A DNA stretch of 64,000 bases, from contig NZ_CP102275.1 of assembly GCF_025149465.1 (NCBI RefSeq), positions 1,116,001-1,180,000 on the forward strand, read 5' to 3'. The translations under genes and the position numbers were made by a program. The notes beneath the pieces are model-generated. The model had not been told where the DNA came from. It saw only the letters and a list, made by a program, of their open reading frames with translations, and ran no database searches. Shown in pieces: positions 51,893 through 61,800 of the stretch. Numbering within the stretch: the first letter of the stretch is position 1; every line of letters begins with the position of its first letter. Source of the stretch: Thomasclavelia spiroformis DSM 1552 (GTDB lineage Bacteria; Bacillota_I; Bacilli_A; Erysipelotrichales; Coprobacillaceae).

Positions 51893-52629
51893 TGTCAGAA
51901 ATTATTAGAGTTGAAAAACTAAAGAAATCTTTTGGTGATTTAGAAGTATTACATAGTATTGATTTTTCAGTCTCTTCTGGTGAAGTTGTTACGATCATTG
52001 GTGCTAGTGGTAGTGGTAAATCAACATTTTTACGCTGTTTAAATATTTTAGAAACACCAAATGCTGGTAAAATTATGTATCATGGAAAAGATATTTTAAA
52101 AGGTGAAATTAATGTAAATAAACATCGTAGTAAAGTTGGGATGGTGTTTCAAAACTTCAATTTATTTAATAATAAAACAGTCTTAGAAAATTGTGTTATT
52201 GGTCAAGTGAAAGTCTTAAAAAGACATCGTAAAGAAGCAATTGAAATAGCAAAAAAATATTTAGAAAAAGTAGGAATGTTGAAATTTGCGAATGTAAGCA
52301 GTGTTCAATTATCAGGAGGACAAAAGCAACGTGTAGCGATTGCTCGCGCATTATGTATGAAACCAGAAGTATTATTATTTGATGAACCAACAAGTGCTTT
52401 AGATCCAGAAATGGTAAGTGAAGTATTAAAAGTTATGAAAGATTTGGCCAATGAAGGATTGACAATGATTGTTGTAACTCATGAAATGCAATTTGCTCGT
52501 GATGTTTCTTCCAGAGTTGTTTTTATGGATGGTGGTGTAATTATGGAACAAGGAACACCTGACCATATTTTTAATCATCCAAGCAAGGAAAGAACAAAAG
52601 AATTTTTAAAACGTTATTTAGAACAATAA
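51892..52629 (+). CDS. Amino-acid ABC transporter ATP-binding protein
   Basis: A 245-residue polar amino acid type ATPase: Walker [10 protein letters not shown], signature [15 protein letters not shown], Walker [16 protein letters not shown], switch histidine in VVTHEMQFA. The ATG overlaps the fused permease gene's stop (TAATG). It energises the lysine-type importer. Confidence 0.96.
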
Positions 52630-52652
52630 ACACCTAATTAGGTGTTTTTTTG
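52629..52652 (+). terminator. Terminator after the amino-acid importer
   Basis: ACACCTA and TAGGTGT pair around ATT, followed by TTTTTTG. Confidence 0.85.
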
Positions 52653-52717: not shown

Positions 52718-54049
52718 ATGGATAAAGAATTAGATTTAACAACTGGAGTGATTTGGAAACAATTGTTATTATTTTTCTTTCCTATCTTAATTGGAACATT
52801 TTTTCAACAGCTATATAATACTGTAGATACGGTTATTGTAGGAAAATATGTGGGAACTAATGCTCTTGCTGCAGTTGGTTCAACTGGTAATTTAATAAAT
52901 TTGATCGTTAATTTTTTTATTGGATTATCATCTGGAGCAACTGTTGTAATTGCTCAATTTTATGGATCGAATGATGATATAAAAGTATCTAAAGCAGTTC
53001 ATACATCGATTGCAATGTCATTTATTTGTGGTGTTGTCATGATGATTTTTGGTTTGCTTTTTTCTAGACAATGTCTAAATATGATTGGAGTTCCAGGTGA
53101 CATCATTAATGATGCGACATTATATATGAAATTATATTTTTTAAGCATGATACCTGGAGTAATTTATAATATCGGTGCTGGGATATTAAGGGCAATTGGT
53201 GATTCAAAAACCTCATTATATTATTTAATTGTCTGTAGTGGTGTAAATGTCTTTTTTGATTTATTGTTTGTTGCTTATTTTAAGATTGGAGTTGCTGGTG
53301 CGGCAATTGCTACAGTAGTTGCGCAATTTGTATGTGCTTTTTTAGTAATGAGAAAATTGATAAGAAGTAAGCATAGTTATCAATTAAGATTAAAAGAAAT
53401 AAAAATAGATACAGCAATTTTAAAAAGAATCATAAAAATAGGAATTCCAGCTGGGATACAATCAACTATGTATTCTATTTCAAACATAGTTTTACAAACG
53501 AGCATTAATGCTTATGGTACAAATACAATTGCTTCATGGGCTGCTTATGTAAAAATTGATGCTTTATTTTGGATGGTAATGGGAGCATTTGGTTCGACAA
53601 TAACTACATTTACAGGACAAAATTATGGTGCTGGATTAATGAAACGTGTAAATCAAGGAATGAAAACATGCCTGTTTATGGCTTTTGTATCAGCAGGATT
53701 AATTAGTAGTTTTCTATGGATTTTTGGTAGCAATATTACAGTTTTATTTTCTAATGATATAAAAATTATTAATGAATGTAGTGAGATAATTCGGTTTTTA
53801 ACACCATTTTATTTTACATATTGTTGTGTAGAAATATTTTCTGGAATAATGCGTGGTTGTGGAAAGTCACTTGAACCGATGGTAATTGTATGTTTAGGTA
53901 TTTGTGTGCTTAGAATTTTTTGGGTTTTATTTATAGCGCCGATATTTTCTTCGTTTAATATGTTGCTTGTTTCTTATCCAATTACATGGTCAGTTACATC
54001 GATATTATTTTTGTTTGTTTATCGTAGATTTAGTACGAAAAAATTATAA
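52718..54049 (+). CDS. MATE family efflux transporter
   Basis: A 443-residue transporter with 12 membrane segments in two halves. It opens FFPILIGTFFQQLYNTVDTVIVGKYVG, the DinF/NorM-like MATE start, and the second half begins IKIGIPAGIQSTMYSISN. It differs from the other MATE gene at 27.9 kb in branch and has no riboswitch. GGGAGG precedes the ATG. The substrate is unknown. Confidence 0.9.
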   Translation: MDKELDLTTGVIWKQLLLFFFPILIGTFFQQLYNTVDTVIVGKYVGTNALAAVGSTGNLINLIVNFFIGLSSGATVVIAQFYGSNDDIKVSKAVHTSIAMSFICGVVMMIFGLLFSRQCLNMIGVPGDIINDATLYMKLYFLSMIPGVIYNIGAGILRAIGDSKTSLYYLIVCSGVNVFFDLLFVAYFKIGVAGAAIATVVAQFVCAFLVMRKLIRSKHSYQLRLKEIKIDTAILKRIIKIGIPAGIQSTMYSISNIVLQTSINAYGTNTIASWAAYVKIDALFWMVMGAFGSTITTFTGQNYGAGLMKRVNQGMKTCLFMAFVSAGLISSFLWIFGSNITVLFSNDIKIINECSEIIRFLTPFYFTYCCVEIFSGIMRGCGKSLEPMVIVCLGICVLRIFWVLFIAPIFSSFNMLLVSYPITWSVTSILFLFVYRRFSTKKL

Positions 54050-54100: not shown

Positions 54101-56656
54101 ATGAAAAAAATAGTATTAGGAATATTAGCGCATGTTGATGCGGGTAAAACAACATTAACAGAGAGCATGTTATATTTAAGTAAAACGATACGTCATTTAG
54201 GTAGAGTTGATCATGGTGATGCATTTTTAGATTATAATAGTCAAGAAAGAGATCGAGGAATTACGATCTTTTCTAAACAAGCAATGTTTAATTGGAATGA
54301 TTGTCAAATTACATTAATTGATACACCAGGGCATGTTGATTTTTCAACTGAAATGGAGAGAACATTGCAGGTCTTAGATTATGCAATATTAGTTATTAGT
54401 GGGATTGATGGAATCCAAAATCATAGTGAAACAATTTGGAAATTATTAAAGCATTATCATGTTCCAACATTTATTTTTATAAATAAAATGGATAGTATTT
54501 ATGCAAATAAAGATAAATTATTGAATGATTTAAAAGGACAGTTTGATGAAAATTGTTTTGATTTTGAAAATTTAGATGAAAATTTTTATGAGACAATTGC
54601 TTTAAATAATGAAAAATTACTAGATTATTATTTAGAACATCAAACTCTTACAAAAGAAATGATCATTGATGAAATTTATCAGCGAAATTTATTTCCATGT
54701 TTCTTTGGTTCGGCTTTAAAAATAGAAGGAATAGATACTTTTTTAAATGAATTTACAAACTATGTTAAAGAAAAAAAATTTCCTAAGCAGTTTCAAGCTC
54801 GAGTATTTAAAATAACTCATGATAAACAAGGCAATAAGTTAACTCATTTAAAAATAACGGGTGGTAGTTTAAAAGTAAAAGAACAAGTAGGTAATGAAAA
54901 AGTAGATCAAATTCGAATTTATTCGGGTGATAAATATCAATTAGTAAATGAAGTATATGCTGGAGATATATGTGCAATTAAAGGTTTTAAGAACTTTGAA
55001 ATTAGTCAAGGATTAGGAAATGAATCAACAATTAATACTCCAATTTTATCACCATATATGGATTATCGAATTATTTTACCAGAAAACTGTAATCAACATG
55101 AAGCTTTAGAAAAATTATTATTGTTATCAAAAGAAGATCCGCAATTACATATCAATTATAATAATCAATCAAAAGAAATTCATGTTGAGTTAATGGGAGA
55201 AATCCAAGTCGAAATTCTAAAAAATATCATTAGTGAAAGATTTAATTTAGATGTTGAATTTGATCATGGTAATATTATTTATAAAGAAACGATTTTAGAA
55301 CCAGTTGAAGGGGTAGGACACTTTGAACCATTAAGACATTATGCTGAAGTTCATTTATTACTTGAACCAGGTAAACCAGGAAGTGGTTTAGAGTTTGCCG
55401 TTGATTGTAAAGAAAATGTTTTAGCTACAAGTTATCAGCGGTTAGTTTTGAGCCATTTAAAAGAAAAAGAGCATATTGGAGTTTTAACAGGTTCTTTAAT
55501 TACAGATATGAAAATAACATTGATATCTGGAAGGGCACATTTAAAACATACTGAAGGTGGCGATTTTCGTGAAGCAACGTATCGTGCCTTAAGACAAGGA
55601 TTAAAAGCAACTAAATCAATTTTATTAGAACCATATTTCAAGTTTACATTAGAAATACCGGTTGAATATTTAAGTCGAGCAATTTATGATATTGAAACAA
55701 TGAATGGCACTTTTAAATTATCGAAAGAGCAAGATGAAATGGCTTATCTAACGGGAAAGGCTCCAGTTAGTAAAATGCAAAATTACCAAAGTGAGGTAAT
55801 TAGTTATACTAAAGGTAAAGGTAGAATAACATTACAAATTGATGGTTATTATCCTTGTACTAATCAAGAAGAAATAATTAGTAAAATCAATTATGATAGT
55901 GAATCTGATCTTGAAAACCCTACTGGTTCTGTATTTTGTAGTCATGGCGCCGGTTTTAATGTTAAATGGGATGAAGTAGAAAATTATATGCATATTCCTT
56001 ATCAATTTAAACCAAAAAATGAAAATATAGAAAAGAAAATTGAAAAAACAACGTATAGCAATGAAGACGAAGAATTAGAAAACATTTTTATTCGTACTTA
56101 TGGACCAATAAAACAACATCAAACAAACACATTAACTAAAAAAATCATCAGTAATACAACATATAAATACATGCCGGAATGTTTATTAGTTGATGGTTAT
56201 AACATTATTCATTCATGGCCGGAATTAAAAGAATTAGCTAAAGATAATTTAGATGCTGCTAGAACGCGATTAATTGATATAATGTGTAATTATCAAGGCT
56301 ATAAAAAATGTATTTTAATTTTAGTTTTTGATGCTTATAAAGTAAAAAATAATTTAGGTTCTAGTTATAAATATCATAATATCTATATTGTTTATACAAA
56401 AGAAGCCCAAACAGCAGACATGTATATTGAAAGAACGACACACGAACTTGCAAGTAAATATAATATTACAGTAGCAACATCAGATGCTTTAGAACAATTA
56501 ATTGTTCTTGGTCAAGGTGGGAAAAGAATTTCTTCTCGAGAATTACGTTTAGAAGTAGAAAAATTAGATAAAGAAAAATTGGAAGAATATCGTCGTAAAC
56601 AAGCTAAGGGATATAATTATTTATTAGAGGATATAAAAAATTATAATAAGGAATAA
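54101..56656 (+). CDS. Ribosomal-protection GTPase (TetM/EF-G-like) fused to a YacP/Rae1-type NYN nuclease domain
   Basis: An 851-residue fusion. Residues 1-~630 are a translational GTPase of the Tet(M)/Tet(W) type: G1 AHVDAGKTT, G3 DTPGHVDF, G4 NKMD, then EF-G-like domains. The end of this part has the domain-IV and -V motifs (VEYLSRAIYDIE, GAGFNVKWDEVE). A linker (~640-690) leads to a NYN domain with acidic residues placed as in YacP/Rae1: D698 (LLVDGYNII), D744 (VFDAY), D773 (TADMYI), D795 (TSDALE). Rae1 of Bacillus cuts mRNA in the ribosomal A site, the same site ribosomal-protection GTPases clear. The gene is monocistronic or starts a small unit with the next one. Confidence 0.88.
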   Translation: MKKIVLGILAHVDAGKTTLTESMLYLSKTIRHLGRVDHGDAFLDYNSQERDRGITIFSKQAMFNWNDCQITLIDTPGHVDFSTEMERTLQVLDYAILVISGIDGIQNHSETIWKLLKHYHVPTFIFINKMDSIYANKDKLLNDLKGQFDENCFDFENLDENFYETIALNNEKLLDYYLEHQTLTKEMIIDEIYQRNLFPCFFGSALKIEGIDTFLNEFTNYVKEKKFPKQFQARVFKITHDKQGNKLTHLKITGGSLKVKEQVGNEKVDQIRIYSGDKYQLVNEVYAGDICAIKGFKNFEISQGLGNESTINTPILSPYMDYRIILPENCNQHEALEKLLLLSKEDPQLHINYNNQSKEIHVELMGEIQVEILKNIISERFNLDVEFDHGNIIYKETILEPVEGVGHFEPLRHYAEVHLLLEPGKPGSGLEFAVDCKENVLATSYQRLVLSHLKEKEHIGVLTGSLITDMKITLISGRAHLKHTEGGDFREATYRALRQGLKATKSILLEPYFKFTLEIPVEYLSRAIYDIETMNGTFKLSKEQDEMAYLTGKAPVSKMQNYQSEVISYTKGKGRITLQIDGYYPCTNQEEIISKINYDSESDLENPTGSVFCSHGAGFNVKWDEVENYMHIPYQFKPKNENIEKKIEKTTYSNEDEELENIFIRTYGPIKQHQTNTLTKKIISNTTYKYMPECLLVDGYNIIHSWPELKELAKDNLDAARTRLIDIMCNYQGYKKCILILVFDAYKVKNNLGSSYKYHNIYIVYTKEAQTADMYIERTTHELASKYNITVATSDALEQLIVLGQGGKRISSRELRLEVEKLDKEKLEEYRRKQAKGYNYLLEDIKNYNKE

Positions 56657-56665
56657 GGTGATTAG

Positions 56666-57031
56666 ATGAAATTTCAGTATAATCTTAATTATATTGGAGG
56701 AATTGATGGTTATAATAAAAGAGCGATTTATACTTTAAAGATTACAGATGATTATTTTTATGTAAATGGTTTGATTAAAAGTAAGAAATTTGCATATGAA
56801 CAAGTAAAGGGGATTTTTTTTGGTGAAATTAATGATTTAAAAAGGGCGTTTGCGGAAGTAAAATTATTATTTGAACAAGTAAGTTTGTTGGATTATCGTT
56901 TAAATCGTAAATTAAAATATTGCTTAGTTATTGTTTTAGAAGATACTAAAATTGTTTTTGCTCAAGAAGAGGATATTAATTTAAAGAATGCCTTTAGAAG
57001 ATTAAAAGAAAGACATAGTCAAAAAACCTAG
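56666..57031 (+). CDS. Hypothetical protein downstream of the GTPase-NYN gene
   Basis: A 121-residue soluble protein with alternating strands in the first half (YNLNYIGGIDGYNKRAIYTL) and a helical second half. It might be a PH-like or YolD-like fold, but I recognise no motif. It lies nine bases after the GTPase gene, with AAGGTGATTAG before the ATG, so it shares its transcript. Confidence 0.65.
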   Translation: MKFQYNLNYIGGIDGYNKRAIYTLKITDDYFYVNGLIKSKKFAYEQVKGIFFGEINDLKRAFAEVKLLFEQVSLLDYRLNRKLKYCLVIVLEDTKIVFAQEEDINLKNAFRRLKERHSQKT

Positions 57032-57052
57032 TCAAGTGACTAGGTTTTAAAC
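57024..57052. terminator. Bidirectional terminator between convergent genes
   Basis: AAACCTAGTC and GACTAGGTTT pair around AAGT, with A/T runs on both sides. It separates the hypothetical gene from gltX. Confidence 0.88.
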
Positions 57053-58838: not shown

Positions 58839-61800
58839 ATGAGGTATTTAAAGAAAGTTTTTTCGATATTTTTAGCGTTAGTTTTAAGTATTACAATGCT
58901 TTCTTCCTATGTGATGACTTTAAAGGCAGATAATAATGTAATTAATCTAAATGAATTGGAGCCTTTTAAAGGAAGAACAAAAGAGTAAGTAACAGAAAAA
59001 TATGATATTGCTAAAAAGGATGAATATTATAATAGAGGGAATAATGATTATTATAAGATTACCCCATCATTGGTAGCTCCCTATGATGGAGGAAAATTAA
59101 AAGAAGAAGTTCATCAAGCAATGACGGATTTAACTAATTTTTATCGTTGGTTAGCAGGGGTAAATCCATATGAAAATGTTTCTAGTCATGATCAAAATTT
59201 ACAAAATTTTGCAGTCATTGAAACATTGTATTTTAATGCAACAGGTTCATTAAATCATTATTCTGGTAGCTCAAATTTATGGTCAAAGCCTAATGATATG
59301 AGTGATGAATTTTGGCAATCTGCATTTGCACCTAATAAAATTATTGCTTATGGTAGTTCACCTCAAGCATCAATTGAACAATGGTTTGAAGAAGGATACA
59401 ATCAAAGACAAAATGCATTCAATACGACAGGGCATCGTGATATGTTATTGAGTTATCAAACAACAGGTATGACATTTGCATATACAGATAGAATGGCAAT
59501 AGGAAGACAGTTGGGTGGAGAAACAATGAATTTACCATGTACAGCATACCCAGCTCCAGGTCCTTATCCTAATATTAGTCTTAACCCAGAAGAAACAGCG
59601 TGGTCAATAGAACTAAATGATCAACAATTAAGTTATGATAATATTAATGATATCACAATAAAAGTAACTAATTTAACTACTAATGAAAGTTATGAGTGTA
59701 CAGCAAAAAATAATAAATTAACAACAGTAAGTTATGGTTATGGATTTGCGTTTGCACAACCTGAAGTAAATACAGATACATATGTTGATTCATATAAAAT
59801 AGAAATACTAGGTCTAAAAGATTTAAATGAAAATGATAAAATTGTTACATATCAAACTGATCTTTTTGATCCAGCTACAATGCTTAGTTCAAATGTTGTA
59901 AAAGTTGATTATGCATGGACAAATGTTCATGATAGTTTGTGGAATGAAAATAGTGTAGATGAAAATGATATATTTGGTGTTATGCCTACTGAAATAATAT
60001 TTGAAACAGATAATGGACGTAAAGAATTATTAGAAATAGGATGGCTATATAAAAGTTCTGGTTTAGGTGAAAAATGGATGAACGTAGCATGGTATTTTTT
60101 ACCAGAAAATGTTAATGATCATCAAAATTTAATAAGTGATTTTGGGGTATACTTTGATCGAATTAGAAATACGGATAGTGACAAAAATTTGAAATATATG
60201 GTAACAGAAAACGAAACACTGACAATGGAAGTGACACCATATGAAAATTGGCCTATAGATGAGTATAATTGGTATAAATCACAGAGTAATGGTGATCCAA
60301 TATTGATTGCTCAAACATGTAAACCAACTTTTACAATTGAAAATGTAACCAAAGAAGATGCCGGTAAATATTTTGTAATATATCGTATAACAAACGATTT
60401 AAATAGAAATACTTTCATTACACCATATAAAACTGTTACAGTAAAAGAGCCATTAGCTCTTGATCATCTTGAAGTTACATCAACAAAGACAAAATATGTA
60501 ATTGGTCAAGATTTTGATCCTGAAAGTTTAGATATTACAGCTTATTATAATGATGATAGTTCTAAAAAATTAAATTATAATGATGTAACAATTACTGGTT
60601 TTGATTCATCTAGTTTAGGTGAAAAAACGATAACAGTTACATATAAAGAAGATAATAAAACAGTTTCTACCACTTTTAAAATTGAAATAATAGAAAAAGA
60701 AGTTAAAGATATAGTATTAACCCCTCCTACAAAAGTTAAATATGTTGAAGGACAATCATTAGATTTAACAGGTGGAAAAGTTATTGTATCTTATAATGAT
60801 GACACAAGTGAAGAAATAGATTTGACTAGTGATATGGTTAGTGGCTATGATAAAGATCATCTTGGAAAACAGACAATTATCGTAACATATCAAGGAAAAA
60901 CAGCAACATTTGAAGTTGAGGTTATAAAAAAAGAAGCTACAAAAATAGAACTTGTAACTCTACCAAATAAAATTGAATATATAAGAGGGCAAAAACTTGA
61001 TTCTGATGGAGCAATCAAAACTGAATATATCGAAGGACAACCTTTAGACATTAGTAATTTAAAAGTAATTGCATTATATAATGATGGAACATCAGAAGTA
61101 ATTGATGCTTCAATGGATATGATTAGTGGTTATGATGTAAATATTATAGGAAAGCAAACAATTACAGTGACATATAAAGGAAAAACAACAACATTTGATG
61201 TAAATGTTATCGAAAAAGTTATTACAAAAATAGAAATGAATAGTTTACCTAATAAAGTTAATTATCTTGTTGATCAAAAATTTGAAATTAATGGGGCAAC
61301 AATTAAAGTTTACTATAATGATGGAAGTGAAGAAATAGTAAATGTAGATAGTAATATGTTTAATTTACCAAATATGAGTAAAATTGGTAATCAAACTATT
61401 ATCGTTAATTATGGAGGATTGACTACTAGTCTTGAAATATTGATCAATGATAAAACATTAGTTAATATTACTGTTTCAACTTTACCAGATAAAACCGAGT
61501 ATATTGAAGGTCAAGGTTTAGATGTTACTGGTGGTAAATTGTTATTGACTTATGATAATGGAAGTAGTGAAATAATCGATATTACTTTAGCTATGTGTAG
61601 TGTTGATATGAGTAAACCTGGTCAGGTAAATGTTAGTGTTATTTATAATGGATTTACTGTTACTTATCCTATTTTAATTAAAGAAAAAACACCTGTATCA
61701 TTAATATAGGTTGAAAAGCCGAGATTAGACAAATTAAAGAAGGAATGGAATTTATTTATAGTGGAGAAGTAAAGATTGTTTATGACAATGGTAGTGAAGA

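Follow-up and report, generated by a model that had tools for sequence, protein, structure and literature searches.

A chromosomal fusion of a translational GTPase with a Rae1-type nuclease domain in Thomasclavelia spiroformis, a candidate tethered form of an A-site endoribonuclease

Introduction

In the DNA analysed here, a 64,000-nucleotide stretch of the genome of Thomasclavelia spiroformis DSM 1552 (hereafter the window), one gene encodes a GTPase of the kind that includes the tetracycline ribosomal-protection proteins (RPPs), joined to a nuclease domain resembling Rae1 (YacP). Such a chain raises the question of whether it serves to protect ribosomes from a drug or to bring a nuclease to them. 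Rae1 has been described as an endoribonuclease that acts on mRNA in the A site (PMC6613710, citing Leroy et al. 2017), and it may reach the A site upon ribosome stalling (PMC6613710). The initial annotation of the locus proposed a quality-control factor; the novelty that it implied was overstated, the domain combination having been published in 2015. Atkinson et al. 2015 (PMC4342817) described Tet proteins of ten Clostridiales species that had gained a YacP-like NYN RNase domain, and suggested a new mechanism of resistance in which RNase activity takes part. A literature search returned this as the only paper naming both a Tet-type GTPase and a YacP-like NYN domain, and found no biochemical test of any member of the clade described below.

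Results

The gene occupies window positions 54101–56656 (all features below lie on the + strand) as one open reading frame, running from ATG to stop with no internal stop and encoding 851 amino acids. Pfam identified, in order, a complete EF-G/Tet-type GTPase of five domains with a C-terminal extension and a YacP/Rae1 NYN nuclease, bearing out the earlier assignment of both halves to a single chain. The G domain (GTP_EFTU, aa 4–223, 54110–54769, E = 1.4e-51) has its AHVDAGKTT, DTPGH78 and NKMD motifs intact. It is followed by domain II (EF-G_D2, aa 231–302, 54791–55006), domain III (EFG_III, aa 325–387, 55073–55261), domain IV (EFG_IV, also recognized by fold, aa 391–503, 55271–55609) and domain V (EFG_C, aa 508–589, 55622–55867), so that the Pfam matches reach aa 589. 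With the G1, G3 and G4 motifs and five EF-G domains all present, the protein is a translational GTPase of the EF-G superfamily; the G motifs are invariant or nearly so among its relatives. The remainder of the chain comprises a clade-specific C-terminal extension defined by alignment (aa 590–631, 55868–55993), a flexible linker (aa 632–694, 55994–56182) and the NYN_YacP/Rae1 nuclease domain, delimited by Pfam, alignment and fold (aa 695–847, 56183–56641).

An AlphaFold model built from an input of 28 homologues (mean pLDDT 86.9) showed two confident bodies separated by a disordered stretch at about aa 641–688, with pLDDT in the linker partly below 50. Fold searching matched the first body (aa 1–625) to EF-G and TetM (3j9y); the whole-chain search returned the GTPase half only, and the NYN half was therefore modelled separately. 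Within the flexible connection of about 60–70 residues, alignment and model both revealed a conserved helix (aa 656–668, DEELENIFIRTYG, 56066–56104). Its consensus, DEELxxIFxRTYG, is present in most fused proteins and absent from unfused GTPases and standalone Rae1, and it is possibly a docking element. A chance reading frame or assembly artefact was ruled out by the existence of dozens of independent homologous fusions.

The GTPase half was placed using an IQ-TREE phylogeny of 59 rows, from which Tet(Q), Tet(T) and Otr(A) were left out. Fused proteins and their unfused kin formed one clade (support 100/99), in which the Clostridia fusions grouped with the window protein. This clade is sister (99/92) to a clade of Tet(M), Tet(O), Tet(W), Tet(S) and TetB(P), itself supported at 100/99 and also taking in an RPP-like protein of Paenibacillus, and EF-G lies outside. 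Family models told a similar story. The highest-scoring ones for the window protein are Tet models (432 bits for the NCBIfam model tet_protect versus 311 for EF-G), but both scores fall short of the curated cut-offs (775 and 659.4, respectively), as does that for a further Tet model (250 versus 1420), whereas the controls Tet(M) and TetB(P) passed tet_protect at 877 and 959 bits. The description "Tet(M)-like" in the initial annotation thus holds for the fold; it does not hold for the clade or for the curated Tet cut-offs, and the accompanying expectation that the GTPase would not group with ordinary resistance proteins agrees with its place in a separate sister clade. The window's genome has a gene for a true EF-G at another site. 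Unfused members of the clade include those at loci L140 and L131 (Ligilactobacillus salivarius megaplasmids), L062 and L065 (Bifidobacterium) and L064 (Collinsella).

Like Tet(M) and Tet(O), the window protein has a five-domain, EF-G-like GTPase with a C-terminal extension, and TetM (3j9y) aligns across aa 1–625; it differs from them in being only about 30% identical, and in its other domain IV loops, its longer extension and its added nuclease. The extension following domain V, NPTGSVFCSHGAGFxVxWDEVxxYMH, is common to fused and unfused clade members. With EF-G it shares the fold, the intact G motifs and a histidine at the domain IV tip, but it lacks the SGGRGQYGHV segment of domain IV. In EF-G and TetM, domain IV is the arm reaching into the A site. 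Its tip, loop III (aa 477–490, GRAHLKHTEGGDFR, 55529–55570, by alignment), reads GRAHLKHTEGGDF in the window protein versus GLYYSPVSTPADF in the Tet type, is without Ser-Pro-Val and has K482-H483 at the place of Pro-Val in the Tet(M) triplet. In Tet-type RPPs this Ser-Pro-Val holds the tetracycline-displacing proline. The clade consensus at the tip is G-[KR]-A-H-x-K-H-T-x-G-G-D-F-R, and H480 aligns with EF-G H583, which rapid translocation requires: changing this residue to lysine slows the step (PMC4490557). The missing triplet is still compatible with drug release, because a Tet(M) triple mutant with alanine at all three positions (S508A/P509A/V510A) was active, showing that loop III tolerates change (PMC4750697).

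The fusion is likely the middle gene of a three-gene unit bracketed by terminator-like hairpins. A MATE transporter gene (52718–54049) ends 51 nt before it and is probably on the same transcript; a 121-aa reading frame with no Pfam match (56666–57031) follows, probably as the last gene. One hairpin (52628–52647) lies between an upstream ABC transporter and the unit, and the other (57023–57048) closes it. Across about 40 loci no conserved neighbour was found, neither the MATE gene nor the 121-aa frame being kept elsewhere, and for this reason the MATE gene says little for a role in drug handling. The translated genes around the fusion included no transposon or conjugation genes that would mark a mobile resistance gene; relatives do occur on a few plasmid records, these being large secondary replicons. 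A drug-sensing leader directly upstream was rejected, the 51 nt between the MATE gene and the fusion leaving little room, and a known defence system was rejected for want of a PADLOC match. A phage origin was likewise set aside: the two "Bacteriophage sp." matches (L168 and L169; MT835563 and MT835514) are unverified, unannotated human faecal scaffolds, and the fused gene on them is probably bacterial DNA filed as phage. Further along the window (59070–61709), adjoining gltX, is a gene for a large protein with five Big_3 Ig-like domains, probably a surface protein.

These observations bear on the reading of the fusion, proposed by Atkinson et al. 2015, as a protection factor against tetracycline or another A-site drug, in which domain IV would eject the drug and the RNase would be an accessory, for instance cutting the drug-stalled message. 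The ranking of Tet models above EF-G, the tolerance of loop III to change, the nearby MATE gene and the public annotation of relatives as TetM/TetW/TetO/TetS family all favour it. We consider it unlikely, given scores far below the curated cut-offs that true RPPs pass, a position outside the RPP clade, a domain IV tip unlike that of every RPP aligned, a MATE gene that is not a conserved neighbour, and a chromosomal, non-mobile gene that is near-universal in its own family.

The NYN half was compared with Rae1 by profile, active site and structure. The NYN_YacP model (PF05991) matched at E = 1.3e-49 and 168.8 bits against a cut-off of 24.6, and a profile of the NYN part searched against the PDB had Rae1 as its only match (E = 9e-42). 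By alignment with Bacillus subtilis Rae1, the four acidic residues named in the initial annotation are at exactly the positions of the Rae1 active-site set: Asp698 (codon 56192–56194; Rae1 D7), Asp744 (56330–56332; D53), Asp773 (56417–56419; D81) and Asp795 (56483–56485; D104). All four were kept in 42 of 42 aligned sequences and in each of 65 fused-protein rows from about 45 genomes. The separate model superimposed on the solved structure of Rae1 (5mq9) with Z = 19.7 and an rmsd of 1.9 Å over 134 residues at 40% identity, the next fold in the search scoring Z = 8.7, and the proposed match to YacP/Rae1 therefore withstood a structural search as well.

The likeness to B. subtilis Rae1/YacP (PDB 5mq8, 5mq9) thus extends to the NYN fold and all four active-site aspartates, but the setting differs. 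B. subtilis Rae1 is a free 170-aa protein from the cysS-mrnC-rlmB-rae1-sigH cluster, whereas the window's NYN domain is the C terminus of a GTPase at another locus. The C-terminal tail of Rae1 with W164 and R166 is missing from the window protein, the ending being different in the window's family, and the alignment shows a Rae1-type tail lost or altered across the fusions; in B. subtilis Rae1, R166P in this tail is a loss-of-function change (PMC6613710). The window feature is a Rae1-type domain and not a rae1 gene.

NYN_YacP scored above its cut-off in 38 of 392 genomes of the window's phylum, with one copy in each, and nearly all of these matches fell within a frame of 820–930 aa. Of the 15 genomes sampled from the window's own family, 14 carried the fusion. 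A Clostridia-type sample of 299 genomes (a phylum sample centred on a Lachnospiraceae genome) contained 18 with the fused and 136 with the standalone form and none with both, versus 8.2 expected; the hypergeometric P of about 1e-5 assumes independence and ignores kinship, fused genomes clustering in related lineages. Where contigs were named, each fused genome held one NYN domain, free NYN domains occurred in Neobacillus, Intestinibacter and Paenibacillus jilunlii, and none was found in two Bifidobacterium genomes that carry the unfused GTPase. A Collinsella genome (G405, L187) encodes, together with an unfused GTPase, a free NYN_YacP protein of about 230 aa whose sequence has diverged strongly (91 bits).

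The usual site of rae1 was also inspected. B. subtilis, Clostridioides difficile and Listeria have rae1 after rlmB; at the corresponding rlmB-rae1-sigH site of the window's genome rae1 is absent after rlmB, and cysS-mrnC-rlmB is followed about 20 nt later by a weak sigma-like gene and nusG. Because rae1 is missing from this site, Rae1 activity, if any, would in the fused lineages be borne by the GTPase alone. Since the genomes carrying the fusion are without a separate rae1, the fused protein probably does the job of Rae1, the cutting of mRNA on stalled ribosomes. The gene at the sigH position (L162:6697–7314) matches Sigma70_r2 only weakly, at 21 bits and short of the cut-off, and is possibly a degenerate SigH; its frame starts VDGYN, which resembles an NYN motif and may be chance.

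With respect to origin, the deepest branch of the GTPase clade consists of unfused proteins from Neobacillus, Paenibacillus cellulosilyticus and Intestinibacter, and those of Neobacillus and Intestinibacter sit in genomes that have a separate rae1. All fused proteins fall on one later branch (100/98), a "Rosetta stone" pattern that points to two separate partners joined later. Nested among them are unfused lines of Bifidobacterium, Collinsella, Ligilactobacillus and Subdoligranulum, best read as losses of the nuclease. The claim of a single origin rests on the GTPase tree, because the NYN tree was too short to root the fused NYN domains and its supports were weak. The fused state occurs in two phylum-level groups and is therefore old.

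A reading of the GTPase as an auxiliary elongation factor, such as a back-up translocase that helps at pauses, with the NYN domain a co-expression passenger and each half working alone, appears improbable. H480 at the position of a residue for fast translocation, the persistence of unfused versions without any NYN domain in Bifidobacterium and the long, flexible linker fit such a passenger; the age and two-group span of the fused state, the nuclease aspartates intact everywhere, a conserved linker helix that argues against a passive tether, and the missing free rae1, which suggests that the tethered form suffices, do not. Processing of stable RNA by the NYN half (rRNA or tRNA in or near the ribosome, the GTPase bringing it to ribosomes or assembly intermediates and the substrate not being mRNA) would accord with the rRNA and tRNA maturation predicted for NYN domains, as cited by Atkinson et al. 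2015 (PMC4342817), and with the adjacency of rae1 to the 23S methylase gene rlmB and mini-RNase III in other genomes, but is very improbable given that Rae1, the one characterized close relative, is described as an A-site endoribonuclease on mRNA (PMC6613710) whose fold and active site the NYN half matches closely.

Discussion

The reading we prefer, with a probability of roughly 55%, is that the fusion amounts to Rae1 in a tethered, GTP-driven form that acts on mRNA in the A site. The GTPase half would recognize ribosomes with an empty or blocked A site and dock at the factor site in the manner of EF-G and TetM, with domain IV in the decoding centre. GTP hydrolysis would then let the GTPase half withdraw, and the tethered NYN domain, held at high local concentration, would move into the A site and cleave the mRNA codon exposed there. 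The message would be destroyed and the ribosome left on a truncated message for rescue by tmRNA, which is present in the window's genome; the genome also encodes an Smr-domain protein, in a frame of 772 aa. The fusion would in this way replace free Rae1 and make access of the nuclease depend on the ribosome state that the GTPase reads. In the A site, the place taken by Tet-type proteins overlaps that where EF-G binds (PMC8161019), and the domain IV tip and the NYN domain probably cannot share the A site at one time, which is why sequential action is proposed; the order of events is a guess.

Presence in nearly all genomes sampled from its own family, in no mobile context and with no conserved neighbours, gives the gene a housekeeping-like appearance. 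A role in quality control or mRNA decay, rather than the plain tetracycline resistance that the initial annotation had also discounted, is favoured by the position of the clade, the lack of a standalone rae1 in fused genomes and the lack of mobile context. Two observations weigh against the preferred reading: the loss or alteration of the Rae1 tail in the fusions, and the Bifidobacterium members, which are unfused and without any NYN domain, so that the GTPase also has a role independent of the nuclease. A broader proposal, which we put forward tentatively, is that the clade as a whole is a distinct non-resistance GTPase family that ancestrally sensed stalled ribosomes with a vacant or blocked A site, and that in gut Clostridia and their relatives it was joined to Rae1 to give a GTP-gated endonuclease, hydrolysis handing the A site from domain IV to the nuclease.

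The fusions of Atkinson et al. 2015 have the same order in one chain, a Tet/EF-G-type GTPase and then a YacP-like NYN domain. Those authors regarded them as Tet proteins with an added domain, whereas the GTPase here forms its own clade outside Tet(M), Tet(O), Tet(W), Tet(S) and TetB(P); beyond their account, fusions are frequent also in the phylum-level group to which the window belongs, and the fused gene appears to stand in for standalone rae1. What sequence comparison adds is a well-supported separate sister clade with its own domain IV tip, deepest members that are unfused and the lack of a second Rae1-type gene in fused genomes, and this evidence shifts weight from resistance to replacement of Rae1. 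If the preferred reading of a tethered Rae1 is true, it explains how an A-site nuclease is directed to the right ribosomes, namely by a dedicated GTPase reading ribosome state. With the fusion, the question of what brings Rae1 to particular ribosomes can also be put to a direct test, since the two halves and their active sites can be mutated separately.

A further consequence would be that a common group of gut-bacterial genes leaves the list of presumed tetracycline-resistance genes; the public labels of TetM/TetW/TetO/TetS family resistance on many members inflate resistance-gene counts. The L. salivarius members from plasmid records carry this same annotation yet score far below the Tet cut-off, and for them it is likely an over-annotation. 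In L. salivarius the unfused gene adjoins a plasmid-borne rpsN (S14).
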